This document shows positions 1 through 64,000 of a DNA stretch of 64,000 bases, in pieces (positions within the stretch are counted from its first letter, which is position 1; each line of letters begins with the position of its first letter). The notes beneath the pieces are model-generated. The model was not told the origin of the DNA. It made no database searches and saw only the letters and a list, made by a program, of their open reading frames with translations. A program made the position numbers and the translations under genes. Where the stretch lies: the NCBI GenBank assembly GCA_030710605.1, contig CP092863.1:142754623-142818622 (forward strand), read 5' to 3'. The DNA is from Cordylochernes scorpioides (lineage: Eukaryota > Arthropoda > Arachnida > Pseudoscorpiones > Chernetidae).

Positions 1-2681
1 GTTGCTTCCGAGACTGCTTTTGTTTCTGCATATCTAGTGTAGTAGTCCGTCAGCACGATTATCCATTTTTTCCTGTTTTTCGTAGATGGCAATGGACCAA
101 CAAAGTCAATTCCAATTCTTTCGAAAGGAAAGTTGGCTGGGGGAATGGGCTGTAGTAGTCCAGAAGGTAATTGGTTTGGGCCTTTTCTACTTTGGCAAAG
201 ATGACACGTCTTAACGAACTCTGAGACATCCTTTAGCATGGATGGCCAAAAGTATTTACTCTTTATTCGGTACATGGTTCTGGCGACACCCAGATGGCCA
301 TTCGACATATGATTGTGATATTCTTTCATAATTTCTCTCTTTTTCTTCTCTGGAACCACAAGCAACCACGCCCTGCCTTCAGGGTTCGGGTTTTTCTTAA
401 AGAGGCATCCATCTTCTACTTTAAAGTTTTGCGCAATTGATCGCCTGCTTCCATTAAGGTTTTTCTTAACACTTTCGATAAACTTATCCTCTTCGTCTGT
501 TATTTGATTTAAAAATAGCCTTTCAAAATCCTCATCCCAATCAGTTTCTGGTAAGGGTCCCCTAGATAAGCCATCGGCGTCCAGATGTTTCTTTCCTGAT
601 TTATGTATTATATCGAAGTCATATTCTTGAATTTTCAATGCCCATCTTGCCAATCGACCTGTTGGATCCTTCAAGTTTTTGAGCCAGCATAAGGCGTGGT
701 GGTCTGTTACTATTTTAAAGTGTCTTCCATAAAGGTAGGGTCGTAATTTTGACATTGACCAGACAACGGCCAGACATTCTTTTTCAGTGGTTGAATAATT
801 TTGCTCCGCTTTACTTAGGGTACGACTCAAATATGAGATCACCTTCTCTTCACCACCGATGTCTTGGACAAGTGTTGCACCTATGCCGATGTTGGACGCA
901 TCAGTATGAACATAAGTAGGTGCATTTGGATTGAAGTGACCTAAAATTGGTGGACTTAATAGTGCTGTTTTTAGGGTTTGAAACGCTTCCTCTTGTCTTT
1001 CTGTCCAGATAAATGATACACTTTTTTTTATAAGGTTGGTCAAAGGGTCAGCAATTTTTGAGAAGTCTTTGATAAATTTTCTATAATATGAACACATTCC
1101 CAAAAAGGATTGTACTTCTTTGACCTTTTTGGGCCGAGGGAAATTTCTGACAGCTTTGATGTTATTTTCCGCGGGTTTTATACCATGTTTGCTCGTTATA
1201 TAGCCGAGAATCTCCAATTCTTCAAAAGCAAATCGGCATTTTTTGTCGTTTAACCTTAAATTAGATTCACGAAAACATCTAAAAACAGCTTCAAGTCTTT
1301 TGAGGTGCGTTGGAAAATCCGGGCTATATATGATAACATCATCCAGATAACACAAACAAATTTGCCATCTCAGATTTCCAAGCATATTCTCCATATTTCT
1401 CTCAAAGGTAGCAGGCGCGTTACAAAGTCCAAAAGGCATCACGTTGAATTCATATAATCCATGTGCTGTAGTGAAAGCTGTTTTCTCTTTGTCTCTTTCT
1501 TCGACTTCAACTTGCCAATATCCAGATCTGAGGTCTATTGCTGAGAAGTGTGTAGATCCTTGGAGAGTATCCATAACTTCGTCTATTCTAGGGATCGGAT
1601 AGACATCTTTTACTGTCACATTATTCAGTTTTCTGTAGTCCACACAAAATCTGTATTTACCATCTCGCTTCTTGACCAATATTACTGGAAAAGACCAGGG
1701 GCTAGAAGATGGCCTAATTATGCCTTCTGTAAGCATCTCGTCAATTTGCTCTTTTATAATATCTCGTTCTTTAGCACTTACCCGGTAAGGCTTGTGTTTA
1801 ATTGGCTTCGCGTCTTCTGTGTCTATCCGATGTTTTGCCAAATTGGTTCTCCCTAATCTCGACGAAAAAAGATCTCCATACCTTTCTAAAACTTGTTTTA
1901 ACTCCTTCTGTTCCTTTGGTGAAAGATTTTCGTTTATTTGGAATCTAGGTTCTTTGTTCTCTTCTACCTCTCTTTCTCGACTCACATTTATTTTCGCTGG
2001 ACTACTTCCAAAAGCCAATGTTTGGTTTTTCATTATTTTTAACGGTCGAGGATACGGATTAGTTATCCAGATGTGTGTTTCCCTATTTATAACATTGATC
2101 AAGCTTCTTGCTAGACGAAGTCCATTTGTTTGAAACATTTTGCTGCTCTCCTCGATAATATATTCTCCATCCTCTGTTTCTACCAATGCCTTGATCAATT
2201 TCATGGAACATTCCGGTACAATGGAATCCTTGGCACTCTTTATTTTCAACATTTCAAAATTGATTTCGTCATGATTATTCGTCAAATCGTATTTGATAGT
2301 TTCTTGCTTACAATCTATTTTTGCGTTCATTTTCTTAAGGAAATCTCTCCCAAGAATTAATGTCCGTAAATGCGTTTTCAATATCACAAAGTTGTGTGAT
2401 AATGTTTCGTCATCAATTTTTATATTTAAAAATATACTTCCTACCATGTCCAATTTTTTTCCATCGGGTCCTGCACAAATTTTTGCGAGTTTACTTATAC
2501 CATGGCCTGTATCGAGGGCCGTTCTGAGGTCGACCACTGAGAGGTCAGCACCTGTATCAACCAAAGCTTCAAAAGTCCCTATCTTGTCCACGTTAATTTT
2601 TAATTTGTATTTAGGGTCCAACTTCTTGATTCCGTTTATGGTCGACTTGCTTTGATTGACAGATTCAGGCGCGACGCTTAG
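1..2681 (-). CDS. pol: Ty3/gypsy retrotransposon pol (partial, runs off window start)
   Basis: Minus-strand reading in the -1 frame relative to gag gives, in order: aspartic protease with DTGA codons at 2547-2558; reverse transcriptase with VDYRKLN and the catalytic YLDD at 1338-1349; RNase H with TDHHALCWL near 690-720; an HHCC integrase zinc-binding region around 190-320; and an integrase core with IDFVGP near 95-112 and LTDYY near 30-45. Protease-RT-RNaseH-integrase is the Ty3/gypsy order. I saw no stop in the stretches I translated, so the element may be fairly young. The last integrase acidic residue, the C-terminus and the 3' LTR lie outside the window. No ATG is needed because expression is expected by ribosomal frameshift from gag. 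Clade within Ty3/gypsy is not determined. Confidence 0.93.
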
Positions 2682-3841
2682 TTTAAATCTTCCAACACGG
2701 AATATCTATTCCGGGTAGGAATATTTGTCTGTGTGTTATGACATACATCGGCATAAAGCCGAGGTCCTGATTTCTCTGATATTTCATTCATTTGGCATTT
2801 CTCTTCGACCTTCTCTTGGGTATCTGCTGGATCCTCTTCTAAGATTCTTATAAACTTGACCCTACAATAACGGGCCACGTGCCCTGGCTTGTTACATTTA
2901 AAGCAGATTGGTCTCCCGTCTTCTGTCCTATTCCTAATTGAATTTGGATTCTTATTGTATGTTTTACTTGGGTAGACTGGTTTTGGCTCAGGATTAGGAG
3001 TGTAAGATCGTCTAGGGGCAGATACCTGGGGCAGAGGTTTGTCCTGGTAGTACCTCGGAGTGGGGGCCTGGGGCTTGGAGGTGTTCTGGTAGTACCTCGG
3101 AGCGGGGGCCTGGGGCTTGGAGGTGTTCTGATATGGTCTTCTGAACGACGTAGCATTCTTCCATTGCTCTTGATGATGGGGACGAGGAGAGCGTGGTCCA
3201 TTATATAGAGCTTTTGATTTTTCTGCACGTTCTTGGTAATTCTTTTCGAACAAATCCAGCTTCTTACAAATTTCTAGGAGTTCATTGGTATTTTTAGGAG
3301 GGTTTAGGTGAAGGGCAAAAGAGTATTCTTTCTTTAACCCTCTAATAACCCAGTTTATTTTAGTCTTTTCTTCCATTTGGGGGTCGACCTTGTTGCACAG
3401 TACAAGGATATCCTCTGCGAACCTGATTGCAGGTTCATTCCACTGTTGCATCCTGTTTAGTTTCATCTTAATTTCTTCTTTGTTGGCGTCTGAGGCAAAA
3501 TCCTCAATTAGGCGGCTCTTGAAATTTTCCCAGCTGGTGAAACTTATCTTGTGTAGGTTCAGCCAGGTTTTGGCGCTACCAATCATATTCATGGCAGCAT
3601 AACGAGAGATAATGTAGTCTGCCCAATGGTACAGGAAGCCAATTTCTTCAAGAGATTCAATCCATGGGCGAGGGTCTTCCGTTCCATCATACTTGGGGAT
3701 GTCGATGTTGGGATTCAGGACAACTGGGTCGGAACTAGCATCTCTACCAATTGTTGCACCAGGTTGCGGCTTGGCAGACTCTTCAGCCTTGATTCTCTCC
3801 TGTGCTGGGTCTTGCATCTTACCAGAGCGTGTTTCAACCAT
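2678..3841 (-). CDS. gag: Ty3/gypsy Gag polyprotein with CCHC zinc knuckle
   Basis: 387 residues starting at the ATG ending at 3841. The N-terminal half has the retrotransposon Gag (capsid-like) pattern (PKYDGTEDPRPWIESLEE, then AKTWLNLH and NWVIRGLKKEYSF). It is followed by a basic, proline-rich stretch with two near-identical YYQNTSKPQAP repeats. A zinc knuckle CX2CX4HX4C (CFKCNKPGHVARYC) sits at residues 313-326 (2864-2905) and would bind genomic RNA. The ORF ends in TAA at 2678-2680, directly after a -1 slippery heptamer, and pol continues in the -1 frame. It is intact in length. I see no clear primer-binding site or LTR in the 250 bp upstream before unrelated repeat DNA, so the 5' end is probably truncated. 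Confidence 0.92.
   Translation of the reverse strand: MVETRSGKMQDPAQERIKAEESAKPQPGATIGRDASSDPVVLNPNIDIPKYDGTEDPRPWIESLEEIGFLYHWADYIISRYAAMNMIGSAKTWLNLHKISFTSWENFKSRLIEDFASDANKEEIKMKLNRMQQWNEPAIRFAEDILVLCNKVDPQMEEKTKINWVIRGLKKEYSFALHLNPPKNTNELLEICKKLDLFEKNYQERAEKSKALYNGPRSPRPHHQEQWKNATSFRRPYQNTSKPQAPAPRYYQNTSKPQAPTPRYYQDKPLPQVSAPRRSYTPNPEPKPVYPSKTYNKNPNSIRNRTEDGRPICFKCNKPGHVARYCRVKFIRILEEDPADTQEKVEEKCQMNEISEKSGPRLYADVCHNTQTNIPTRNRYSVLEDLN
2681..2687 (-). promoter_or_regulatory. -1 ribosomal frameshift slippery heptamer (T TTA AAC) at gag end
   Basis: Read on the minus strand, gag ends GA-T-TTA-AAC-TAA. T TTA AAC fits X XXY YYZ in the gag frame and lies immediately before the stop. Slipping back one base gives TTT AAA CTA AGC, which is exactly the open pol frame leading to the protease. 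I did not work out a downstream pseudoknot. Confidence 0.8.
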
Positions 3842-4087
3842 CCTACAAATTTATATAAGGGAATAATGAGATAAGTCTACTTTAAGTAACCTCCAGCAAG
3901 ATCTATTTATTTTCTCACATCAAAGAGAGCAGTGAAGTCACAGTGTACCTAAATACAAATGATGATAATCTAATCTGTTTTAAATAAATATCATTGAATA
4001 TTTTATATATAAAAATAAATAAATATATAATTTAAATTTCAAATATATTAAAAATAATATAAGAAATACGCCATTAATCATGATGTA
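3842..4087. other. Gag leader remnant and AT-rich spacer
   Basis: About 245 bp between gag and the U6-derived array. No LTR, PBS or other gene could be recognised. The part from about 3980 is nearly pure A/T. Confidence 0.5.
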
Positions 4088-4090
4088 ACA

Positions 4091-4128
<38 letters not shown>

Positions 4129-4352
4129 GGCCCCTGTGATACCAGTTCGGCGGTACAACTACAACAATAGGAAGGATACAGAGAAGATTAGCATGGCCCC
4201 TGTGATACCAGTTCGGCGGTACAACTACAACAATAGGAAGGATACAGAGAAGATTAGCATGGCCCCTGTGATACCAGTTCGGCGGTACAACTACAACAAT
4301 AGGAAGGATACAGAGAAGATTAGCATGGCCCCTGTGATACCAGTTCGGCGGT

Positions 4353-4392
<40 letters not shown>

Positions 4393-5622
4393 GGCCCCTG
4401 TGATACCAGTTCGGCGGTAAAACTACAACAATAGGAAGGATACAGAGAAGATTAGCATGGCCCCTGTGATACCAGTTCGGCGGTACAACTACAACAATAG
4501 GAAGGATACAGAGAAGATTAGCATGGCCCCTGTGATACCAGTTCGGCGGTACAACTACAACAATAGGAAGGATACAGAGAAGATTAGCATGGCCCCTGTG
4601 ATGCCAGTTTGGCGGTACAACTACTACAATAGGAACGATACAGAGAAGATTAGCATGGCCCCTGTGATACCAGTTCGGCGGTACAACTACTACAATAGGA
4701 ACGATACAGAGAAGATTAGCATGGCCCCTGTGATACCAGTTCGGCGGTACAACTACTACAATAGGAAGGATACAGAGAAGATTAGCATGGCCCCTGTGAT
4801 ACCAGTTCGGCGTTACAACTACTACAGTAGGAAGGATACAGAGAAGATTAACATGGCCCCTGTGATACCAGTTCGGCGGGACAACTACTACAATAGGAAG
4901 GATACAGAGAAGATTAGCATGGCCCCTGTGATACCAGTTCGGCGGTACAACTACTACAGTAGGAAGGATACAGAGAAGATTAGCATGGTCCCTGTGATAA
5001 CAGTTCGGCGGTACAACTACTACAATAGGAACGATACAGAGAAGATTAGCATGGCCCCTGTGATACCAGTTCGGCGGTACAACTACTACAATAGGAACGA
5101 TAAAGAGAAGATTAGCATGGCCCCTGTGATACCAGTTCGGCGGGACAACTACTACAATAGGAAGGATACAGAGAAGATTAGCATGGCCCCTGTGATACCA
5201 GTTCGGCGGGACAACTACTACAATAGGAAGGATACAGAGAAGATTAGCATGGCCCCTGTGATACCAGTTCAGCGGTACAACTACTACAATAGGAAGGATA
5301 CAGAGAAGATTAGCATGGCCCCTGTGATACCAGTTCGGCGGTACAACTACAACAATAGGAAGGATACAGAGAAGATTAGCATGGCCCTTGTGATACCAGT
5401 TTGGCGGTACAACTACTACAATAGGAACGATACAGAGAAGATTAGCATGGCCCTTGTGATACCAGTTTGGCGGTACAACTACTACAATAGGAAGGATACA
5501 GAGAAGATTAGCATGGCCCCTGTGATACCAGTTCGGCGGTACAACTACTACAGTAGGAAGGATACAGAGAAGATTAGCATGGTCCCTGAGCAAGGATGAC
5601 ACGAAAAATCGTGAAGCGTTCT
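4088..5622 (+). repeat. 66-bp tandem array derived from the 5' half of U6 snRNA (23 cores)
   Basis: The unit is 57 nt alignable without gaps to U6 snRNA from TTCGGC through ATACAGAGAAGATTAGCATGG to CCCCTG, plus a 9-nt linker (tgataccag). The core recurs every 66 bp with ATGs at 4127, 4193 and so on to 5579, giving 23 cores. Each keeps the ACAGAGA box (one unit has AAAGAGA) and the AGC triad. The stretch between TTCGGC and GATACAG has drifted in most units (CAACTACAACAATAGGAAG), but the first unit (4091) and the fifth (from 4352) keep the U6 form ATATACTAAAATTGGAACG. The array closes with U6 3' sequence. Because 66 is a multiple of 3, long repetitive frames stay open on both strands; these look incidental. 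Confidence 0.93.
5588..5622 (+). pseudogene. U6 snRNA 3'-end remnant closing the array
   Basis: GAGCAAGGATGACACG followed by AAAAATCGTGAAGCGTTC matches the U6 internal stem-loop and 3' region with a few changes. It follows the last core in native U6 order, so the last core plus this segment is a nearly contiguous U6 3' two-thirds. There is no oligo-T terminator immediately after it, so it is unlikely to be an active U6 gene. Confidence 0.85.
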
Positions 5623-5727
5623 CTCTGACCACTCAAATGAACATCTTAGATAGCAAAGCGTACCATCTATAATAATAATTATCAACATCAATTTTTATTA
5701 TGATATATCATATAAATATTTTATATA

Positions 5728-6306
5728 TACAGTCATAGACAAAGCTTAAGGAAGTTGTACCTTTTAGCATGTGTATCGGGATTCAGACAATAACTCTGAA
5801 AGATATTACAGTGACCTTTATTGGAGACACACGAGATAACCAAGTATGTATACACTCATAGACAAAGCTTAAGGAAGTTGTACCTTTCAGCATGTATATC
5901 GGGATTCAGACAATAACTCTGAAAGATATTACAGTGACCCTTTATTGAAGACACACGAGATAACCAAGTGTGTATACACTCATAGACAAAACTTAAGGAA
6001 GTTTTACCTTTCAGCATGTATATCGGCATTCAGACCATACCTCTGAAAGATATTACAATGACCTTTATTGGAGACACACGAGCTAACAAAGTATGTATAC
6101 ACTCATAGACAAAACTTAAGAAAGCTTTACCTTTTAGCATGTATATCGGGATTCAGACAATAACTCTGAAAGATATTACAGTGACCCTTTATTAAAGACA
6201 CACGAGATAGCTAAGTGTGAACAAAATTGCCTCTGAATCTTAAAAAAAAAGGACGTCTGGCGAAATCAAATACTTTCTACTACCTTATGTTTTTGTCTAT
6301 GAGTGA
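5728..6306 (+). mobile_element. TIR DNA element (Tc1/mariner-like end) with four tandem left ends
   Basis: The left end TACAGTCATAGACAAA (5728) is the inverse of TTTTTGTCTATGAGTGA at about 6290-6306. The left-end segment is repeated four times at about 123-bp spacing (5728, 5851, 5975, 6098), each beginning TACACTCATAGACAAA or TACAGTCATAGACAAA. No transposase is seen, so the element is non-autonomous. The outer TA is compatible with Tc1/mariner target preference. A lone left end with similar sequence is at 19795 (and 46195 in copy 2). Confidence 0.65.
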
Positions 6307-6535
6307 AAATTAAATTTCACGTTCAGTAATTGGCAGTGGTGCCATTTTGGGGGTTCATTGTGAAATTTTATTTTTCAATATATCATATATTACAACATTG
6401 GCTACGAGAGACGGCCGCACTTAACATCGCTCCCAGCTAAGTACTTTTTATTTCTCTAAACTAGTAATTCTTTTAATTTTTTCATATAATATACATTGCT
6501 AGACTGTCACTCTTTCATAAAGCATTCAGAAAAAG

Positions 6536-7492
6536 ATGAAAATTCTCTCTGGCCCCAACATTACTTTTGTTTTGTATTTGCTAATTTGCATACAAACGCC
6601 AAACTTCCTGTTACAAAAATATGCTAATTTTAGGATGAAAATCTATAGGAAATTATCGCACAATATCTACTGCTCCCCTCTACCCTCGTCAAAACTTTCT
6701 CAAATGTTTCATGCTAAGGTTTTAGCTATTTTGCTAATAATTGGAGGTATTGAACTCAATCCTGGACCTAAGGGACAAACAACTCTGACACCCGCGATTT
6801 TACCGGCAACACACGAATCGGCAGACAGTGATTTAAAGGTGCTGATATTGAATTTGTCAACTGAAATGAAAAGTATGCGAGAAAGACTAGATTCGGGATT
6901 GGCGCAAATAGAAAGACGATTGAAAGAATGGGATAAGAGAGCTCAAGAGATGGAGACGAAAATAACTCAAAGTATGGAGGCACAACGCAACACCGATAAA
7001 AGGGTTGTCAGCAACACTCTGCTACTGCACGAACTGGAGGCTAGAATAGAATATACAGAGGCGAGACTTCGCGAACAGAATCTTATTTTCTATGGCATTG
7101 TAAGAGAGGAAAATGAAAACCCCTTCGACTGTAACCGCAAGGTCAAAAGCATAATCACAGATAAAATGGGACTCACCGATGAAGTCAAAATAACAAAATG
7201 CCATAGGCTATCCCGAGCTGAGAATTCACCGGTACTGGCGGTAATACCGGACCATGAAGAAAGAGCAAGAGTGCTTTCTAATGCAATTAAACTCAAAGGG
7301 TCAAAAATATTTATCAGTAAAGACTATAGCCTCAAAGTAAGGGACCAAAGAAGAATTCTAATTGCGAAGAGAAAGGAGCTGTTTGGGAGGGGTATAAAAG
7401 CCAAATTAAGGGACAACAAACTCATCATAGATGATACGACTTATAGTGTGGTGAACGGTGAGATCGTTAATTCTAGAGGAAATACAATATAG
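6536..7492 (+). CDS. LINE-A ORF1 protein with N-terminal 2A-like motif and coiled coil
   Basis: 318 residues from the ATG at 6536. Residues 8-20 and 61-69 are hydrophobic, and residues 70-78 read GGIELNPGP, a 2A-like motif. A heptad-like charged region follows (about 90-180; LSTEMKSMRERLD, EARIEYTEARLREQN). Next is an RRM-like segment starting NLIFYGIVRE and a basic C-terminal domain ending in DDTTYSVVNGEIV. Coiled coil plus RRM plus C-terminal domain is the architecture of L1-type ORF1 RNA-binding chaperones. The expected role is RNP formation with the element's RNA. The 2A motif would split off the first 77 residues during translation; the canonical aspartate two residues before the glutamate is replaced by glycine, so activity is uncertain. 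The frame is intact, unlike ORF2. Confidence 0.8.
   Translation: MKILSGPNITFVLYLLICIQTPNFLLQKYANFRMKIYRKLSHNIYCSPLPSSKLSQMFHAKVLAILLIIGGIELNPGPKGQTTLTPAILPATHESADSDLKVLILNLSTEMKSMRERLDSGLAQIERRLKEWDKRAQEMETKITQSMEAQRNTDKRVVSNTLLLHELEARIEYTEARLREQNLIFYGIVREENENPFDCNRKVKSIITDKMGLTDEVKITKCHRLSRAENSPVLAVIPDHEERARVLSNAIKLKGSKIFISKDYSLKVRDQRRILIAKRKELFGRGIKAKLRDNKLIIDDTTYSVVNGEIVNSRGNTI
6743..6769 (+). other. 2A-like ribosome-skipping motif (GGIELNPGP)
   Basis: Codons GGA GGT ATT GAA CTC AAT CCT GGA CCT. The canonical consensus is DxExNPGP; here D is G. A hydrophobic run (VLAILLII) precedes it, as is usual for 2A-like sequences of APE LINEs, some of which also act as signal peptides when uncleaved. 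Confidence 0.65.
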
Positions 7493-10916: not shown

Positions 10917-11070
10917 TCTAATTGATGTAAATAATTATATGTAAATAATCTTTGTCAGGACTAGAATGACGAATCATGTATAGGACTTTGATTCCAGTAA
11001 AAGGCTTGTTGCTGCTGTTGTATATAGTCACAGTGTGTAGAAAATACTATACTATACCTACTACTTAGAG

Positions 11071-11120
11071 TAGTAGTTAGGTTGCGCAAGGATGACACGC
11101 AAAATCTTGAAGCGTTCCAT
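11071..11120 (+). pseudogene. U6 snRNA 3'-half fragment
   Basis: GCGCAAGGATGACACGCAAA then ATCTTGAAGCGTTCCA (about 11084-11119) matches the U6 3' half almost exactly. The 12-mer TACTACTTAGAG occurs on both sides (11059-11070 and 11120-11131), like a target-site duplication around 11071-11119. A LINE 3' tail follows within 100 bp. Confidence 0.8.
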
Positions 11121-11241
11121 ACTACTTAGAGGTTTCTCTCTGTATTCTTAGTTCTCTTCCCTTCAATTACTCTGTAAACTGGCGAATCCTTTATAGGACG
11201 AGAGGTCCTCAATAAAGGCTTTTGTTGTTGTTGTTGTTGTA
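11121..11241 (+). mobile_element. LINE 3' end with AATAAAGGCTTTT(GTT)n tail
   Basis: GGCGAATCC, then GGACGAGAGGTCC (a small hairpin), then TCAATAAAGGCTTTTGTTGTTG. The AATAAAGGCTTTTG plus TTG or TG microsatellite end recurs at 16283, 20391, 30009, 31306, 40064 and 41344, so it marks a LINE family whose 3' ends carry this signature. Confidence 0.7.
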
Positions 11242-16324: not shown

Positions 16325-16482
16325 GGTACAATTTAGATGATAGATAAGAACTACAAGGTAATAAAATTAAATCTAAATGAATTAATAGTGTGTGACGTTT
16401 CGGTAACAACAATGTTACTGAAAGACGTCACACATTCTTAATTCATTTGGATTTGCTTTTACTACCTTGTAATTAAGACCTT
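16325..16482. mobile_element. Foldback MITE, GTTTCGGTAACA family
   Basis: ACTACAAGGTAATAAAATTA, then AATAGTGTGTGACGTTTCGG on the left are inverted at right (GACGTCACACATTCTTAATT, TTTTACTACCTTGTA). It belongs to the same family as the many copies at 28.5-37.9 kb. Counterpart at 40085-40248. Confidence 0.75.
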
Positions 16483-18395
16483 TAGTTTATACACAGATTC
16501 TCTTGAGAGATACAGAAAATGAGTGGGGAAAATTTTGCATTGAATCAATACCTTTATTAAGACCTTTAGTTTTATATACAGATTCTCTTGAGAGATACAG
16601 AAAATTAATGGGGAAAAATTTGCATTCAATCAATACCTTTATTAAGACCTTTAGTTTATATACAGATTCTCTTGAGAGATACAGAAAATGAGTGGGGAAA
16701 AATTTGCAATGAATCAATACCTTTATTAAGACCTTTAGTTTTATATACAGATTCTCTTGAGAGATACAGAAAATGAATGGGGAAAAAATTTGCATTCAAT
16801 CAATACCTTTATTAAGACCTTTAGTTTTATACACAGATTCTCTTGAGAGATACAGAAAATTAATGGGGAAAAAATTTGCATTCAATCAATACCTTTATTA
16901 AGACCTTTAGTTTTATATACAGATTCTCCTGAGAGATACTGAAAATTAAAGGGGAAAAAATTTGCATTCAATCAATACCTTTATTAAGACCTTTAGTTTT
17001 ATATACAGATTCTCCTCTGAGAGATACAGAAAATGAAAGGGGAAAAAATTTGCATTCAATCAATACCTTTATTAAGACCTTTAGTTTTATATACAGATTC
17101 TCTTGAGAGATACAGAAAATTAATGGGGAAAAAATTTGCATTCAATCAATACCATTATTAAGACCTTTAGTTTTATATACAGATTCTCTTGAGAGATACA
17201 GAAAATGAATGGGGAAAAAAATTGCATTCAATCAATATCTTTATTAAGACCTTTAGTTTTATATACAGATTCTCTTGAGATATACAGAAAATTAATGGGG
17301 AAAAAATTTGCATTCAATCAATACCTTTATTAAGACCTTTAGTTTTATATACAGATTCTCCTGAGAGATACAGAAAATTAAAGGAGAAAAAATTTGCATT
17401 CAATCAATACCTTTATTAAGACCTTTAGTTTTATATACAGATTCTCTTGAGAGATACAGAAAATTAATGGGGAAAAAATTGCATTGAATCAATACCTTTA
17501 TTAAGACCTTTAGTTTTATATACAGATTCTCTTGAGAGATACAGAAAATGAGTGGGGAAAAATTTGCATTCAATCAAAACCTTTATTAAGACCTTTAGTT
17601 TTATACACAGATTCTCTTGAGAGATACAGAAAATTAATGGGGAAAAATTTGCATTCAATCAATACCTTTATTAAGACCTTTAGTTTTATACACAGATTCT
17701 CTTGAGAGATACAGAAAATTAATGGGGAAAAATTTGCATTCAATCAATACCTTTATTAAGACCTTTAGTTTTATACACAGATTCTCTTGAGAGATACAGA
17801 AAATTAATGGGGAAAAATTTTGCATTCAATCAATACCTTTATTAAGACCTTTAGTTTTATATACAGATTCTCCTGAGAGATACAGAAAATTAAAGGGGAA
17901 AAAATTTGCATTCAATCAATACCTTTATTAAGACCTTTAGTTTTATACACAGATTCTCTTGAGAGATACAGAAAATTAATGGGGAAAAATTTGCATTCAA
18001 TCAATACCTTTATTAAGACCTTTAGTTTTATACACAGATTCTCTTGAGAGATACAGAAAATTAATGGAAAAAAAAATTGCATTCAATCAATACCTTTATT
18101 AAGACCTTTAGTTTTATACACAGATTCTCTTGAGAGATACAGAAAATTAATGGGGAAAAATTTGCATTCAATCAATACCTTTATTAAGACCTTTAGTTTT
18201 ATATACAGATTCTCCTGAGAGATACAGAAAATTAAAGGGGAAAAAATTTGCATTCAATCAATACCTTTATTAAGACCTTTAATTTTATATACAGATTCTC
18301 CTGAGAGATACAGAAAATTAATTGAGAAAAAAATTGCATTCAATCAATACCTTTATTAAGACCTTTAGCTTTATATACAGATTCTCCTGAGAGAA
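16483..18395 (-). repeat. 85-bp satellite made of LINE 3' ends, copy 1 (about 22 units)
   Basis: The unit read on the plus strand is CCTTTATTAAGACCTTTAGT, TTTATATACAGATTCTCTTG, AGAGATACAGAAAATTAATG, GGGAAAAATTTGCATTCAAT, CAATA. Reversed, it ends GAGAATCTGTATA..GGTCTTAATAAAGG, the terminal signature of the LINE tails at 20391, 30009 and 41344. Units alternate CTTGAGAG and CCTGAGAG and ATTAATGG, ATGAGTGG and ATTAAAGG variants, i.e. higher-order mixing. Confidence 0.88.
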
Positions 18396-24681: not shown

Positions 24682-25672
24682 GTAAGTAGGAAAAATTTAT
24701 AGGGATTTCAAAGGGTTTTTGTTAAAATTCACGCAATTTCATTTTGTTTAAAGCTTCTTTAACACGTTATTTTAATATTTTATTTAAAAAAGGGTCTCTA
24801 AAACCGGTTTTTTCGGCACCGGATCTTTATTAAGGGTTGAGGTATTTCGACATTTGGCAATTTGTTCTGTAGCTTTCCATGAAAGTTATTTCTAATTGTA
24901 ATGAATTCTTTAGCAATGTTTCAAATAAATACATCCTGTTTATTAATATAATTATTTTAAATCCCCGTTACCGGTTAGAAAACAAAGTATGTTTTGAAAG
25001 GGTTAATTTGACTCAAAAAGGTGTTTTTTGAAGTTGTTGAAGAGTTTATGAGCTAAAATTCGCCAAAAGCTAAACTGCTGGAAAGTTAGTTATCGATTGA
25101 AAAAGTTTTTGCCACGTGGTACGCCGTCTGGCTCGTAGACGTGGAACTATAATTATTAAAGCGCTTGTTTATAAATGTTAAAAATACTAATATACTGTCA
25201 TTTAAATTGAATTATGTTGCACATTTTTACTGCTTTATGAGTATAAGAGATAACGCAATCCTTTGATACCCTGTTAGGCCTAAGTAGTGAGGGAGGGTAA
25301 GACGCCGCGTATTGTTGTCTACATTTCGTCCCAAACGATTAATAATATTGACAGTGTATAAAGATTTAATTCTAACAAAACACTTATATAAAGTTTGTTT
25401 ATATGTAATCAGTGATTAATAAAACGCTTTCATTGTTCTCGCATCAGATATAAGTATACCAGTAAAAACAAAGAGTGTTTAAAAGTATTTTATGTACTTT
25501 TTATTAAGTTTTAGCGATTTTATTTTTATAATATTATTCGCCTTGAATTACATTTTTATTACAATATTGTAAAAAGGTTTCAGTATCAAATTAAACAATT
25601 TCTATAATATTTAAAAAAAATTATCAGTATTTTGTGATTATAATTTTTTTGTTGTTGTTTTGAGCAGCAGCC

Positions 25673-27176
25673 ATGGGAAAGGAAAAGACCCATATTAACA
25701 TTGTCGTCATTGGACACGTCGACTCTGGCAAGTCCACCTCCACTGGTCACCTCATCTACAAATGTGGTGGTATTGACAAGCGTACCATCGAGAAGTTTGA
25801 AAAGGAAGCCCAGGAAATGGGCAAGGGTTCCTTCAAGTACGCCTGGGTGTTGGACAAGCTGAAGGCCGAGCGTGAACGTGGTATCACCATTGACATCACC
25901 CTGTGGAAGTTCGAGACTGCCAAGTACTACGCCACCGTCATTGATGCCCCAGGCCATCGTGATTTCATCAAGAACATGATCACTGGAACCTCCCAGGCTG
26001 ATTGCGCTGTCCTCATTGTGGCTGCCGGTACTGGAGAGTTCGAAGCTGGTATCTCCAAGAATGGACAGACCCGTGAGCATGCCCTTCTGGCTTACACCTT
26101 GGGTGTCAAGCAGATGATTGTGGGAGTGAACAAGATGGACTCCACTGAGCCACCCTTTAGCGAGAGCCGTTTCGAGGAAATCAAGAAGGAAGTCAGTGCC
26201 TACATCAAGAAGATCGGTTACAACCCAATCCAGGTTCCTTTCGTGCCCATCTCTGGTTTCCACGGAGACAACATGATCGAGCCCAGCAGCAACATGGGAT
26301 GGTACAAGGGATGGGCTATTGAGCGCAAGTCTGGAAAGGCTGATGGCAAGACCCTCCTCAATGCCCTCGACGCTATGGAGCCCCCAAGCCGTCCCATGGA
26401 CAAGGCTTTGAGACTTCCCCTGCAGGATGTCTACAAAATTGGAGGTAAGTTTCCACCAAAGGTAATATTTACACAATTCTAAAATTGTGCCTGTCTATAG
26501 GTATTGGAACGGTGCCCGTCGGACGTGTGGAGACTGGTGTCCTGAAGCCCGGCACTGTTGTGACCTTCGCCCCCGCCAACATCACCACTGAGGTCAAGTC
26601 TGTGGAGATGCACCACGAGGCCCTCACTGAGGCCGTCCCCGGTGACAACGTTGGTTTCAACGTGAAGAACGTCTCTGTGAAGGAGCTCCGTCGTGGCTAC
26701 GTTGCTGGAGACAGCAAGGACAATCCCCCTAAGGCAACTGAGGAATTCACCGCCCAGGTCATCGTCCTCAACCACCCTGGTCAAATCTCCAACGGCTACA
26801 CCCCCGTGCTGGATTGCCACACCGCCCACATTGCCTGCAAGTTCCGGGAGATCAAGGAGAAGTGCGATCGTCGTTCCGGCAAGAAGCTTGAAGGTAATCA
26901 TTTCATATCTTAACTTTCGAACATGTTCTAAAGCAAACTTTGCTTTGTGTAGACCTCCCTAAGGCCATCAAGTCTGGTGATGCCGCCATTGTTGACCTGG
27001 TTCCCACCAAGCCCATGTGTGTGGAGAGCTTTACCGCTTTCCCCCCTCTTGGCAGGTTTGCTGTGCGTGACATGAGGCAGACTGTGGCTGTCGGAGTCAT
27101 CAAGTCTGTCAAGCCTAAGGACCCCAGTGGTGGCAAGGTGACCAAGGCTGCTGAGAAGGCCCAGAAAAAGAAGTAA
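25673..27176 (+). CDS. eEF1A: Translation elongation factor 1-alpha, paralog a (copy 1)
   Basis: Three coding exons: 25673-26444, 26501-26893 and 26953-27176, with introns of 56 and 59 bp (GTAAGT..TCTATAG; GTAATC..TGTGTAG). The product is 462 residues, the normal eEF1A length. G-domain motifs: G1 GHVDSGKS (14-21), DAPGH (91-95), NKMD (153-156) and SGF (194-196). Domains 2 and 3 follow ([20 protein letters not shown]) and a lysine-rich C-terminus. It delivers aminoacyl-tRNA to the ribosome with GTP hydrolysis in the cytosol. ATG context is good (GCAGCCATGG). AATAAA at 27229-27234 is the likely polyA signal. Compared with copy 2, residues near [12 protein letters not shown] differ in a tight cluster. 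It appears intact and functional. Confidence 0.97.
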
Positions 27177-38119: not shown

Positions 38120-38559
<440 letters not shown>

Positions 38560-38659
38560 NNNNNNNNNNNNNNNNNNNNNNNNNNNNNNNNNNNNNNNNN
38601 NNNNNNNNNNNNNNNNNNNNNNNNNNNNNNNNNNNNNNNNNNNNNNNNNNNNNNNNNNN
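38560..38659. other. Assembly gap (100 N) inside eEF1A-b
   Basis: Exactly 100 N. The sequence on the right does not continue eEF1A; it is a Helitron end, a tRNA-like sequence and then the start of the second block. Confidence 0.98.
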
Positions 38660-38669
38660 AAAATATTTT

Positions 38670-38735
38670 GCAACTAGCCGAATGACCCGGGCAACGCCCG
38701 TGTTTTACCCGATTGAATGTTTTGATTCAAATACT
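38670..38735 (-). mobile_element. Helitron 3' end (minus)
   Basis: The minus strand reads GGGTAAAACACGGGCGTTGC, CCGGGTCATTCGG, CTAG (38674-38677), T. It matches the end of Helitron 2; its 5' end was not located. Confidence 0.6.
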
Positions 38736-40084: not shown

Positions 40085-40248
40085 TTTTGAAATGGTACAA
40101 TTTAGATGATAGATTAGAACTACAAGGTAATAAAATTAAATCTAAATGAATTAATAGCATGTGACGTTTCGGTAACAACAATGTTACTGAAAGACGTCAC
40201 ACATTCTTAATTCATTTGGATTTGCTTTTACTACCTTGTAATTAAGAC
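40085..40248. mobile_element. GTTTCGGTAACA-family MITE (copy 2)
   Basis: Counterpart of 16325-16482, preceded by a LINE tail (40003-40078). Confidence 0.7.
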
Positions 40249-41343
40249 CTTTAGTTTATACACAGATTCTCTTGAGAGATACAGAAAATGAGTGGGGAAA
40301 AATTTGCATTGAATCAATACCTTTATTAAGACCTTTAGTTTTATATACAGATTCTCTTGAGAGATACAGAAAATGAATGGGGGAAAAATTTGCATTGAAT
40401 CAATACCTTTATTAAGACCTTTAGTTTTATATACAGATTCTCTTGAGAGATACAGAAAATGAATGGGGAAAAATTTGCATTGAATCAATACCTTTATTAA
40501 GACCTTTAGTTTTATATACAGATTCTCTTGAGAGATACAGAAAATGAATGGGGAAAAAATTTGCATTCAATCAATACCTTTATTAAGACCTTTAGTTTTA
40601 TACACAGATTCTCTTGAGAGATACAGAAAATTAATGGGGAAAAAATTTGCATTCAATCAATACCTTTATTAAGACCTTTAGTTTTATATACAGATTCTCC
40701 TGAGAGATACTGAAAATTAAAGGGGAAAACATTTGCATTCAATCAATACCTTTATTAAGACCTTTAGTTTTATATACAGATTCTCCTGAGAGATACAGAA
40801 AATGAAAGGGGAAAAAATTTGCATTCAATCAATACCTTTATTAAGACCTTTAGTTTTATATACAGATTCTCTTGAGAGATACAGAAAATTAATGGGGAAA
40901 AAATTTGCATTCAATCAATACCATTATTAAGACCTTTAGTTTTATATACAGATTCTCTTGAGAGATACAGAAAATGAATGGGGAAAAAATTGCATTCAAT
41001 CAATATCTTTATTAAGACCTTTAGTTTTATATACAGATTCTCTTGAGATATACAGAAAATTAATGGGGAAAAATTTGCATTGAATCAATACCTTTATTAA
41101 GACCTTTAGTTTTATATACAGATTCTCCTGAGAGATACAGAAAATTAAAGGAGAAAAAAATTGCATTCAATCAATACCTTTATTAAGACCTTTAGTTTTA
41201 TATACAGATTCTCTTGAGAGATACAGAAAATTAATGGGGAAAAATTTGCATTGAATCAATACCTTTATTAAGACCTTTAGTTTTATATACAGATTCTCTT
41301 GAGAGATACAGAAAATTAATGGGGAAAAATTTGCATTCAATCA
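40249..41343 (-). repeat. 85-bp LINE-tail satellite, left part (about 13 units, copy 2)
   Basis: Same unit as 16483-18395. Interrupted by LINE-B at the sequence GCATTCAATCA and resumes at 44626. Confidence 0.88.
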
Positions 41344-44625: not shown

Positions 44626-44950
44626 GCATTCAATCAATACCTTTATTAAGACCTTTAGTTTTATACACAGATTCTCTTGAGAGATACAGAAAATTAATGG
44701 GGAAAAAATTTGCATTCAATCAATACCTTTATTAAGACCTTTAGTTTTATATACAGATTCTCCTGAGAGATACAGAAAATTAAAGGGGAAAAAATTTGCA
44801 TTCAATCAATACCTTTATTAAGACCTTTAATTTTATATACAGATTCTCCTGAGAGATACATAAAATTAATTGAGAAAAAAATTGCATTCAATCAATACCT
44901 TTATTAAGACCTTTAGCTTTATATACAGATTCTCCTGAGAGAAAATAAGT
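44626..44950 (-). repeat. 85-bp LINE-tail satellite, right part (about 4 units, copy 2)
   Basis: Resumes in phase after LINE-B and ends with the same terminal variant (CCTTTAGCTTTATATACAGA) as copy 1. Total in copy 2 is about 17 units against about 22 in copy 1. Confidence 0.88.
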
Positions 44951-50888: not shown

Positions 50889-51877
50889 GTAAGTAGGAAA
50901 AATTTATAGGGATTTCAAGGGGTTTTTGTTAAAATTCACGCAATTTCATTTTGTTTAAAGCTTCTTTAACACGTTATTTTAATATTTTATTTAAAAAAGG
51001 GTCTCTAAAACCGGTTTTTCGGCACCGGATCTTTATTAAGGGTTGAGGTATTTCGACATTTGGCAATTTGTTCTGTAGCTTTCCATGAAAGTTATTTCTA
51101 ATTGTAATGAATTCTTTAGCAATGTTTCAAATAAATACATCCTGTTTATTAATATAATTATTTTAAATCCCCGTTACCGGTTAGAAAACAAAGTATGTTT
51201 TGAAAGGGTTAATTTGACTCAAAAAGGTGTTTTTTGAAGTTGTTGAAGAGTTTATGAGCTAAAATTCGCCAAAAGCTAAACTGCTGGAAAGTTAGTTATC
51301 GATTGAAAAAGTTTTTGCCACGTGGTACGCCGTCTGGCTCGTAGACGTGGAACTATAATTATTAAAGCGCTTGTTTATAAATGTTAAAAATACTAATATA
51401 CTGTCATTTAAATTGAATTATGTTGCACATTTTTACGTCTTTATGAGTATAAGAGATAACGCAATCCTTTGATACCCTGTTAGGCCTAAGTAGTGAGGGA
51501 GGGTAAGACGCCGCGTATTGTTGTCTACATTTCGTCCCAAACGATTAATAATATTGACAGTGTATTAAGATTTAATTCTAACAAAACACTTATATAAAGT
51601 TTGTTTATATGTAATCAGTGATTAATAAAACGCTTTCATTGTTCTCGCATCAGATATAAGTATACCAGTAAAAACAAAGAAAGTTTAAAAGTATTTTATG
51701 TACTTTTTATTAAGTTTTAGCGATTTTATTTTTATAATATTATTCGCCTTGAATTACATTTTTATTACAATATTGTAAAAAGGTTTCAGTATCAAATTAA
51801 TCAATTTCTATAATATTTAAAAAAAATTATCAGTATTTCGTGATTATAATTTTTTGTTGTTGTTTTGAGCAGCAGCC

Positions 51878-53383
51878 ATGGGAAAGGAAAAGACCCATAT
51901 TAACATTGTCGTCATTGGACACGTCGACTCTGGCAAGTCCACCTCCACTGGTCACCTCATCTACAAATGTGGTGGTATTGACAAGCGTACCATCGAGAAG
52001 TTTGAGAAGGAAGCCCAGGAAATGGGCAAGGGTTCCTTCAAGTACGCCTGGGTGTTGGACAAGCTGAAGGCCGAGCGTGAACGTGGTATCACCATTGACA
52101 TCACCCTGTGGAAGTTCGAGACCGCCAAGTACTACGCCACCGTCATTGATGCCCCAGGCCATCGTGATTTCATCAAGAACATGATCACTGGAACCTCCCA
52201 GGCTGATTGCGCTGTCCTCATTGTGGCTGCCGGTACTGGAGAGTTCGAAGCTGGTATCTCCAAGAATGGACAGACCCGTGAGCATGCCCTTCTGGCTTAC
52301 ACCTTGGGTGTCAAGCAGATGATTGTGGGAGTGAACAAGATGGACTCCACTGAGCCACCCTTTAGCGAGAGCCGTTTCGAGGAAATCAAGAAGGAAGTCA
52401 GTGCCTACATCAAGAAGATCGGTTACAACCCAATCCAGGTTCCTTTCGTGCCCATCTCTGGTTTCCACGGAGACAACATGATCGAGCCCAGCAGCAACAT
52501 GGGATGGTACAAGGGATGGGCTATTGAGCGCAAGTCTGGAAAGGCTGATGGCAAGACCCTCCTCAATGCCCTCGACGCTATGGAGCCCCCAAGCCGTCCC
52601 GTGGACAAGTCCCTCAGGCTGCCCCTGCAGGATGTCTACAAAATTGGAGGTAAGTTTCCACCAAAGGTAATATTTACACAATTCTAAAATTGTGCCTGTC
52701 TATAGGTATTGGAACGGTGCCCGTCGGACGTGTGGAGACTGGTGTCCTGAAGCCCGGCACTGTTGTGACCTTCGCCCCCCGCCAACATCACCACTGAGGT
52801 CAAGTCTGTGGAGATGCACCACGAGGCCCTCACTGAGGCCGTCCCCGGTGACAACGTTGGTTTCAACGTGAAGAACGTCTCTGTGAAGGAGCTCCGTCGT
52901 GGCTACGTTGCTGGAGACAGCAAGGACAATCCCCCTAAGGCAACTGAGGAATTCACCGCCCAGGTCATCGTCCTCAACCACCCTGGTCAAATCTCCAACG
53001 GCTACACCCCCGTGCTGGATTGCCACACCGCCCACATTGCCTGCAAGTTCCGGGAGATCAAGGAGAAGTGCGATCGTCGTTCCGGCAAGAAGCTTGAAGG
53101 TAATCATTTCATATCTTAACTTTCGAACATGTTCTAAAGCAAACTTTGCTTTGTGTAGACCTCCCTAAGGCCATCAAGTCTGGTGATGCCGCCATTGTTG
53201 ACCTGGTTCCCACCAAGCCCATGTGTGTGGAGAGCTTTACCGCTTTCCCCCCCTCTTGGCAGGTTTGCTGTGCGTGACATGAGGCAGACTGTGGCTGTCG
53301 GAGTCATCAAGTCTGTCAAGCCTAAGGACCCCAGTGGTGGCAAGGTGACCAAGGCTGCTGAGAAGGCCCAGAAAAAGAAGTAA
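51878..53383 (+). CDS. eEF1A: eEF1A paralog a (copy 2), two +1 frameshifts
   Basis: Exons 51878-52649, 52706-53099 and 53159-53383 with the same introns as copy 1. Exon 1 is intact and encodes the whole G domain. Exon 2 has six C at 52775-52780 where copy 1 has five, and exon 3 has seven C at 53247-53253 where copy 1 has six; each would break the frame. Everything else, including splice sites and the 3' UTR, is intact and nearly identical. Errors in homopolymers of an unpolished long-read contig are the simplest explanation; real pseudogenisation of one allele is the alternative. Residues near [12 protein letters not shown] differ from copy 1 (PMDKALRLP). Confidence 0.93.
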
Positions 53384-62745: not shown

Positions 62746-62998
62746 TATCACTGCAATGTATCATGATGTACAAATAAATTCTTGATTTAAGACCGAATTA
62801 AAGAGTCCCAGAAAGTTCATATCTTAAATCCGAATGGCAGTAATTCTACAAGAATTTTATTTTCAAGACCATATAATCTTGGGTCTTAAAATTTCATAGG
62901 TCTTAAATTGAGAAAGGAGAATGTACAGTAATTGTTGTAAAAAAAAAAAAGACTTGTTCAACTCTATGGAATAAAAATGTGTTGCTGCTGCTGCAGTC

Positions 62999-63770
62999 AT
63001 GGGAAAGGAAAAGACCCACATAAACATTGTGGTTATTGGACATGTCGACTCTGGCAAGTCCACTACAACTGGTCACCTCATCTATAAGTGCGGAGGTATC
63101 GACAAGCGTACCATTGAGAAGTTTGAGAAGGAAGCTCAAGACATGGGGAAGGGTTCTTTTAAATATGCTTGGGTTCTGGACAAGCTGAAGGCTGAGCGGG
63201 AACGTGGTATCACCATCGACATCACTCTGTGGAAGTTTGAGACGGCCAAGTATTATGTGACAGTGATTGATGCCCCAGGCCATCGTGATTTCATCAAGAA
63301 CATGATCACTGGAACCTCCCAGGCTGATTGCGCTGTCCTCATTGTGGCTGCCGGTACTGGAGAGTTCGAGGCTGGTATCTCCAAGAATGGACAGACCCGT
63401 GAGCACGCCCTTCTGGCTTACACCCTGGGTGTCAAGCAGATGATTGTGGGCATCAACAAGATGGACACCACAGAGCCTCCATTCCATGAAGCTCGGTTTG
63501 AGGAGATAAAACGTGAAGTGAGCGCCTACATCAAGAAGATTGGGTACACCCCCAACCAGGTTCCCTTTGTGCCCATTTCCGGATGGAATGGAGACAACAT
63601 GCTGGAGCCTAGTGCCAACATGCCCTGGTACAAGGGATGGTCCATCGAGCGCAAGTCTGGCAAGGTGGAAGGCAAGACCCTCCTCAATGCCCTGGATGCC
63701 ATGGAGCCTCCCAGCCGCCCCTTGGACAAGCCCCTGAGACTGCCCTTGCAGGATGTCTACAAGATTGGAG
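62999..63770 (+). CDS. eEF1A: eEF1A paralog b, first coding exon complete (copy 2)
   Basis: 772 bp, exactly the length of the paralog-a first coding exon, ending AAGATTGGAG|GTAAGT; the remaining exons lie beyond the window end. The G-domain motifs [17 protein letters not shown] and SGW are present (SGF in paralog a). Distinguishing residues: [48 protein letters not shown]. The upstream acceptor TGCTGCTGCAG and GCAGTCATGG start context match copy 1. Probably functional. It lies 11.1 kb downstream of the eEF1A-a start, same strand. A 185-bp tract (63266-63450) is almost identical to paralog a. Confidence 0.96.
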
Positions 63771-64000
63771 GTAAGTTTACATGTTCATGCTCTATTCGCA
63801 AATACTACACCATGGCTTTTAGCAGTCAACTTCGTGGATATCTCACTTTAGGGATATAAAGTACCTAGAAAATTATTTTTATTTATTGAATAAGAACCTA
63901 CATAGGTGCTGCAGGCTTTTTTTCCCAAAGAGGTACTGAGCAGATTGGAAAAAAAAAGTATATATATCTGTGCAAGGCTTTATTGTATATGTTTAATCTA
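63771..64000 (+). other. Start of eEF1A-b coding intron 1
   Basis: GTAAGTTTACATG onward, longer than the 56-bp intron of paralog a because no acceptor joining GTATTGG-type exon 2 sequence appears before the window end. Confidence 0.6.

Follow-up and report, generated by a model that had tools for sequence, protein, structure and literature searches.

A 66-bp tandem array of the U6 snRNA 5' half and its dispersed relatives in one genome

U6 is an RNA central to the splicing machinery. SVA is a composite retroposon with its own tail and an internal VNTR; in SINEU elements, a U1 or U2 head is reportedly followed by a LINE-like tail. The name SINEU (Kojima 2015), as it is cited in excerpts of PMC8010984 and PMC7245038, refers to retroposons built on spliceosomal snRNA. 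In the excerpted text of Doucet et al. 2015 (PMC4476161), mammalian U6 copies, many of them 3'-truncated, are flanked by target-site duplications (TSDs), the 3' part of the snRNA pairs with the target, and U6 chimeras are made by LINEs of several clades. Satellites of related origin include the Ciona U2_sat, which is derived from a U2 gene and is an occasional insertion site of YURE LINEs (excerpts of PMC4640811), and the squamate SINE-derived satellites (sSats) of Vassetzky et al. 2023. According to the excerpts of PMC10702118, sSats are tandem parts of SINEs that are homogenised and occur at many loci, with a reported subtelomeric preference; most have one extended terminal unit, and two are found only in minor variants. 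Here we analyze a stretch of 64,000 nucleotides (hereafter, the window; C1:142754623-142818622) from a 2.62-Gb genome in 24 contigs, in which part of U6, rather than of a SINE, forms the tandem unit.

The array in the window

The first-pass annotation described 23 cores at a 66-bp period, each with 57 nt collinear with U6, and both statements were borne out. TRF reported a single array (4094-5588, period 66, 22.7 copies, 96% matches), and a core search recovered 23 cores with all spacings equal to 66 (Table 1). The Rfam U6 model (RF00026) gave 21 matches over the gathering score across these cores, from a single array, so automatic U6 counts would be badly inflated in such a genome. The best match (5525-5630; 81 bits, E 4.9e-19) spans the full model (1-105) and takes in both the last unit and the 3' end, confirming that a true U6 3' end closes the array. 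Compared to the species' own U6 (a 109-nt sequence of the same genome, identical in L003, L006, and L007), the 57-nt core is identical at 49-57 of 57 positions (mean 90%) in the 22 units that follow the truncated first one. Shuffled U6 matched one unit at a mean of 15/57 and a maximum of 25/57 positions (2,000 trials); identity is therefore far from the chance level and the resemblance to U6 is real.

The repeated units stop at CCCCTG, which is joined to TGATACCAG of the next unit with single-base variants, and CGCAAGGATG-like sequence is found only past the last unit. The authentic ATATACTAAAATTGGAACG that was assigned to the first and fifth units is present in both, but the first is a 5'-truncated U6 without the 5' stem. 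With respect to the catalytic motifs, said to be kept except for the ACAGAGA box of one unit, the box is indeed altered only once (AAAGAGA, unit at 5063), but the AGC triad is also altered in one unit (AAC, unit at 4799). The window array, 5'-truncated as it is, has no TSD. A second, independent U6 retrocopy at 11082 is bounded by a clean TSD, TACTACTTAGAG, and its 5' joint contains a short additional segment.

Several other features accompany the array. Just upstream, an open gag-like ORF on the minus strand (2678-3850) gives matches to Ty3 capsid and zinc-knuckle domains. At about 6.5-10.9 kb lies a LINE that encodes endonuclease and reverse transcriptase domains, and the ORF that precedes its ORF2 (6521-7492) contains GGIELNPGP, which we take to be a 2A-like motif. 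An 86-bp satellite occurs at 16463-18394, 40232-41343, and 44626-44942 (22.5, 13, and 3.7 copies). EF-1-alpha-like coding stretches at 25664-26913, 38120-38677, 51869-53119, and 62975-63859, one of them confirmed by Pfam, form pairs about 25-26 kb apart that look like a segmental tandem duplication. Together with the LINEs, these EF-1-alpha-like copies suggest that the genome is probably that of an animal.

Table 1 Coordinates of the window array, the neighboring U6 retrocopy, and other U6 satellites of the genome (positions without a contig name are those of the window)
Feature	Position	Strand	Details
66-bp tandem array, 23 cores of the U6 5' half	4091..5590	+	Joint of CCCCTG to TGATACCAG, with single-base variants
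First core	4091..4136	+	5'-truncated, authentic-type; 46/46 nt equal to the species' U6; upstream without U6 5' stem
Fifth unit	4337..4402	+	Authentic-type; 57/57 core positions equal to U6
Last unit, unbroken into U6 3' end GCAAGGATGACACGAAAAATCGTGAAGCGTTC	5525..5622	+	Rfam 81 bits, model 1-105
5' TSD TACTACTTAGAG of retrocopy at 11082	11059..11070	+	Clean, 12 bp
Second U6 retrocopy, authentic-type	11082..11119	+	5'-truncated, U6 3' part
3' TSD TACTACTTAGAG of retrocopy at 11082	11120..11131	+	Clean, 12 bp
Full-length derived U6 plus local spacer, tandem	C18:71018400-71019700 (L049)		Period 112 bp, ten cores
Full-length derived U6 plus local spacer, tandem	C1 (L073)		Period 113 bp
Full-length derived U6 plus local spacer, tandem	C6 (L074)		Period 121 bp
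Full-length derived U6 plus local spacer, tandem	C3 (L050)		Period 125 bp
Full-length derived U6 plus local spacer, tandem	C7 (L075)		Period 156 bp
85-bp U6 array, other internal joint	C19:27186980-27188180 (L071)		U6 nt 1 to about 83, head to tail

A family of arrays across the genome

Searching the genome for other 66-bp arrays revealed that the window array is not a single case. The junction was found at 17,038 places (30-base pattern, ≤2 mismatches) and the reversed-pattern control at none; at 66 bp each, this amounts to at least 1.1 Mb, or ~0.04% of the genome. Among the best 40 of 827 candidates, a three-unit DNA query recovered at least 38 further array loci, making 39 with the window, on 16 of the 24 contigs. 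Collections of viral, bacterial, and archaeal contigs, which are silent on relatives of the species, contain no exact match to the junction. The presence of one junction at so many places implies a single origin, or at most a few, followed by dispersal. An assembly artefact, with repeats collapsed or inflated, has next to no probability: tandem arrays do assemble poorly and unit numbers may be wrong, but the number of loci and contigs involved, the orderly blocks of unit variants, and the differing flanks all speak against it.

Five positions, all located between the 5' stem and ACAGAGA, set the consensus unit apart from authentic U6. Thus, what had been taken for local drift of the segment before ACAGAGA is instead a set of five substitutions common to many loci. 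Of the 501 internal units, which come from loci fetched with a derived query, at least 486 have each of four of these changes and 397 have the fifth; this last position is still polymorphic, with the ancestral state in 99 units. As in a SINE family, the copies descend from a propagating variant and share its diagnostic changes. Derived-type U6 5' ends number 1,566, some of them within tandem arrays of full-length U6, and authentic U6 59-mers occur at 1,145 places, some being the last units of arrays. The looser derived 5'-end pattern has 8,106 places, internal units included, of which 74 are exact; the derived 3'-end pattern (910 places) was not used as a count, since authentic U6 satisfies it with exactly 3 mismatches. 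Authentic-type units with the 66-bp junction were found 249 times genome-wide, and because the junction is thus attached to both authentic and derived bodies, it is probably older than the five derived substitutions.

We read 22 loci (the window, L001, and L029-L048), which together hold 23 array runs; the number of cores in a run ranges from 7 to 67, with a median of 22. Intact loci start with GTACnCGCTTGTTCGG, the 5' end of U6 RNA (GTACnCGCTTG), continue with n units of 66 bp, and close with CGCAAGG...GCGTTCC at or near the U6 3' end. They are hence collinear with U6 and end at the ends of the RNA, as processed U6 pseudogenes do. Both U6 ends are present in 11 of the 23 runs; the window array is without the 5' end, and the 11 others miss one or both. 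Mosaics of authentic and derived units were seen in L001, L032, L034, and the window, the authentic-type units being the outer ones in L001 and L032 and two units in the window. Comparison of the flanks of all 23 runs found no flank common to all loci; several have dispersed host repeats in common, at differing distances and orientations. Neither a LINE-related 3' tail nor an A-tail, nor any common sequence past GCGTTCC, was found by eye and by flank comparison, and we therefore speak of a U6-derived retroposon that is SINE-like, not of a SINE. Among the best-scoring loci, 36 array loci (3 on C13 dropped) appear to lean toward subtelomeric positions (KS test: p = 0.0019); the p-value was 0.076 for 56 exact derived 5' ends, obtained from the 74 places after neighbors were merged and contigs of unknown size dropped.

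A repeat of about 120 bp, often tandem, occupies 5722-6216 of the window, between the array and the LINE. It is present in 16 of the 22 array loci (22 matches in L037, 31 in L034), lies no more than about 0.4 kb downstream of the arrays of the window, L034, L035, and L036, and is partly upstream of that of L032. The window and L046 have 197 bp of upstream sequence in common, at different distances from the array. We considered the array as a part of the neighboring LINE or of the 123-bp repeats and rejected this, though not strongly, given that distances differ and both orientations occur; the differing distances and orientations of the repeat suggest chance or shared targets.

Insertion, local growth, and tests of function

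The set of 11 array runs with both U6 ends was examined for TSDs, and 4 of the 11 scored ≥7 (permutation: 3/20,000). In a widened set of 18 pairs, 9 reached this score compared to 4.9% of mismatched pairs (permutation: 0/50,000); however, a greater distance from the ends was allowed, and the seven additions include four pairs whose duplications had already been noticed by eye (L049, L066, L075, and window 11082). We therefore rely on the first set as the fair comparison. Among array runs, 5 of the 12 tested reached a score of 7, and for one of these the sequence is CT-rich; the 11 of 23 runs that were left out are those without one or both U6 ends. Examples of TSDs are CCTTCCATTATA in L066, TACTACTTAGAG at window 11082, and the 9-bp CAATAAAGG in L037. 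When the flanks of L037 were joined with CAATAAAGG written once, 38 of 40 matches crossed the joint, the other two being L037's own flanks. These empty-site matches sit in copies of a host repeat with 81-90% identity, and 31 of the 38 cover exactly the query span, whereas 7 are off by 1 to 5 bases. In sequence terms, the TSDs and the empty site of L037 are the signature of target-primed reverse transcription, and TSDs, as known from processed U6 pseudogenes, thus occur among the 11 runs and in the retrocopy at 11082, although not in the window array.

We hold with moderate confidence that the window array belongs to a family of dispersed retroposons derived from U6, which were carried by RNA and then expanded locally. 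Many members carry the same internal duplication, which yields the 66-bp unit and grows into a satellite. An endonuclease-bearing LINE would supply, in trans, the reverse transcriptase that copies a U6-array RNA (at least two units and one junction) into new sites, and the family was probably LINE-mobilised in this way. Reverse transcription may be primed near GUUCCAU at the U6 3' end, and after landing the 66-bp unit would multiply by unequal exchange or slippage. The LINE beside the window array shows only that such machinery exists, and we infer a role for it or its kin.

Alternatively, the 66-bp array may have spread as DNA, through extrachromosomal circles or ectopic gene conversion, into resident U6 retrocopies by way of the shared 57 nt, which we regard as a real possibility although not the probable course. 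If a 66-mer circle recombined with a resident U6 by one crossover, the product would be exactly a U6 5' end, n units, and a U6 3' end between the resident's TSDs. The plentiful authentic copies, some of them last units of arrays, offer suitable targets; the mosaics of L001 and L032, with authentic outer and derived inner units, and the several arrays without either U6 end (L031, L041, and L045) also agree with this route. On the other hand, of 20 derived 5' ends that were hand-picked from the 74 exact places, 17 lead into the junction or a close variant (including L067, a dimer), two are full-length monomers, and one is a 3'-truncated monomer. The junction accompanies an authentic body in only 249 cases, compared to 1,145 authentic copies, and arrays therefore seem to be tied to the derived sequence. 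This tie is the sole argument against spread as DNA, and an indirect one; the mosaics and the TSDs would be explained by that route too.

Local growth left traces in neighboring units. In 30 loci, the second unit repeated 24 of the 50 variants of its own first unit, compared to a mean of 3.0 and a maximum of 14 in shuffled loci (5,000 trials); 12 of 42 loci had been dropped because the spacing of first and second units was not 66 or changes were too many, and authentic-type variants of L001 and L032 supply 9 of the recurrences. Long blocks duplicated inside L039, L042, L046, and L048 were seen by eye. Neighboring units thus have locus-private mutations in common, which argues for growth in place. 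Unit distances within a locus were smaller than those between loci in 19 of 22 loci, in many by little, and were not lower in L035, L036, and L042; given the small difference, some arrays may have been long and varied from the time of insertion. Since 17 of the 20 derived 5' ends meet the junction, the two appear mostly to go together, with the number of units changing locally.

The genome contains other U6 satellites, in which full-length derived U6 and a local spacer are repeated in tandem (Table 1). In those of C18 and C7 the spacer contains array-flanking sequence, and the element plus its own TSD seems to have become the unit. A further array (L071) has a different internal joint; one of its units holds a junction of the 66-bp type. 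The existence of several separate U6 satellites suggests that tandem growth of U6 is a habit of this genome and not a single event. The proposal that an ordinary U6 copy had expanded internally is therefore upheld with regard to growth in place but not as an event made afresh at this locus. A separate origin of every array, by internal expansion of an ordinary U6 copy, is very improbable, even though local growth is real and satellites with periods of 85, 112, 113, 121, 125, and 156 bp arose separately: thousands of places share the junction TGATACCAG and the substitutions.

With a chimeric query of promoter and U6, no U6 gene promoter was found on arrays or derived copies among the best 40 of 261 candidates, in agreement with the promoterless state of processed U6 pseudogenes. 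The 22 matches that reach the junction start at query position 46-55 (21 matches) or 37 (one match, L072, in which no TATA was seen), and the 11 matches with promoter and U6 all stop at CCCCTG and are all on C20. A pattern of proximal promoter plus derived 5' end had three matches, all at the 3-mismatch limit. Neither search found a promoter-bearing source copy, so the source of the RNA is missing; it may lie in sequence absent from the assembly or use a different promoter. It is conceivable, and in our view rather unlikely, that U6 here is a self-perpetuating retroposon lineage, in which a 66-nt-duplicated variant would spread as RNA, perhaps from an unrecognised or array-made internal promoter, and seed a satellite at each site.

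It had been suggested that the array, if transcribed, could act as a decoy for 5' splice sites or U4. We consider it highly unlikely that the array encodes such a functional RNA or a repeat protein. The internal stem-loop matters to functional U6 snRNA, and its 3' side is missing from the repeated units. Variant events per site were lower in ACAGAGA (3.3) than at other sites (5.8), using a unit finder that tolerates ≤5 core mismatches and slightly protects the ACAGAGA region, but they reached 10.3 in the AGC triad and 9.3 at CpG sites; selection on the catalytic motifs was rejected for the triad and is weak for ACAGAGA. In folding, a two-unit RNA did worse than every one of its 200 shuffled versions. 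Two open frames, of 392 and 550 codons, cross the array, and stop-creating changes in the plus frame numbered 9 compared to 13.8 expected (a nominal deficit), as opposed to 15 compared to 15.4 in the minus frame. Spacings other than 66 were observed 33 times, and 17 of these break the frame, while the plus frame of the array has no Pfam domain above the cut-off. Coding function was rejected, as neither stop changes nor frame-breaking spacings point to a protected frame. With near-neutral motifs, frame-breaking indels, and no 3' stem-loop side, nothing supports a decoy, and the variable triad, the poor folding, and the result of the promoter search agree with this. The arrays appear to behave as selfish or neutral DNA, and no cellular function is proposed.

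Comparison with known systems

Among the papers listed in the literature searches, none showed a U6-half satellite or a U6-derived SINE. The impression that a U6-half satellite is new to the literature therefore holds to that extent, but satellites made from SINE parts have been described (PMC10702118). As far as the excerpts of that paper go, the U6 arrays resemble sSats in being tandem parts of a retroposon at many loci, with terminal units that reach the ends of the element and with homogenisation, and the best-scoring loci may have a similar subtelomeric lean. They differ in that the parent is U6 snRNA and not a SINE, and, in contrast to most squamate sSats with their one extended end, intact loci have both U6 ends. 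Compared to the U6 pseudogenes in the excerpts of PMC4476161, the elements described here have an internal tandem array and a derived subfamily.

Unlike SINEU, with its reported U1 or U2 head and LINE-like tail, the elements consist of U6 alone, with no added tail found. The Ciona U2_sat, in the excerpted account, is likewise a satellite from a spliceosomal snRNA gene, although from U2 and not U6. Like SVA, the family is a retroposon with an internal tandem repeat of variable length; in contrast to SVA, only U6 sequence was found in it. What is new here is an sSat-like element made of U6, with both termini in intact loci and its own derived subfamily, whereas its stock is that of ordinary U6 pseudogenes. 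The system joins three subjects that are usually separate, namely snRNA retrocopies, dispersed retroposon families, and satellites. Because one genome has authentic copies, derived monomers, a dimer, arrays, and U6-plus-spacer satellites, the birth of a satellite from a non-coding RNA could be traced copy by copy.
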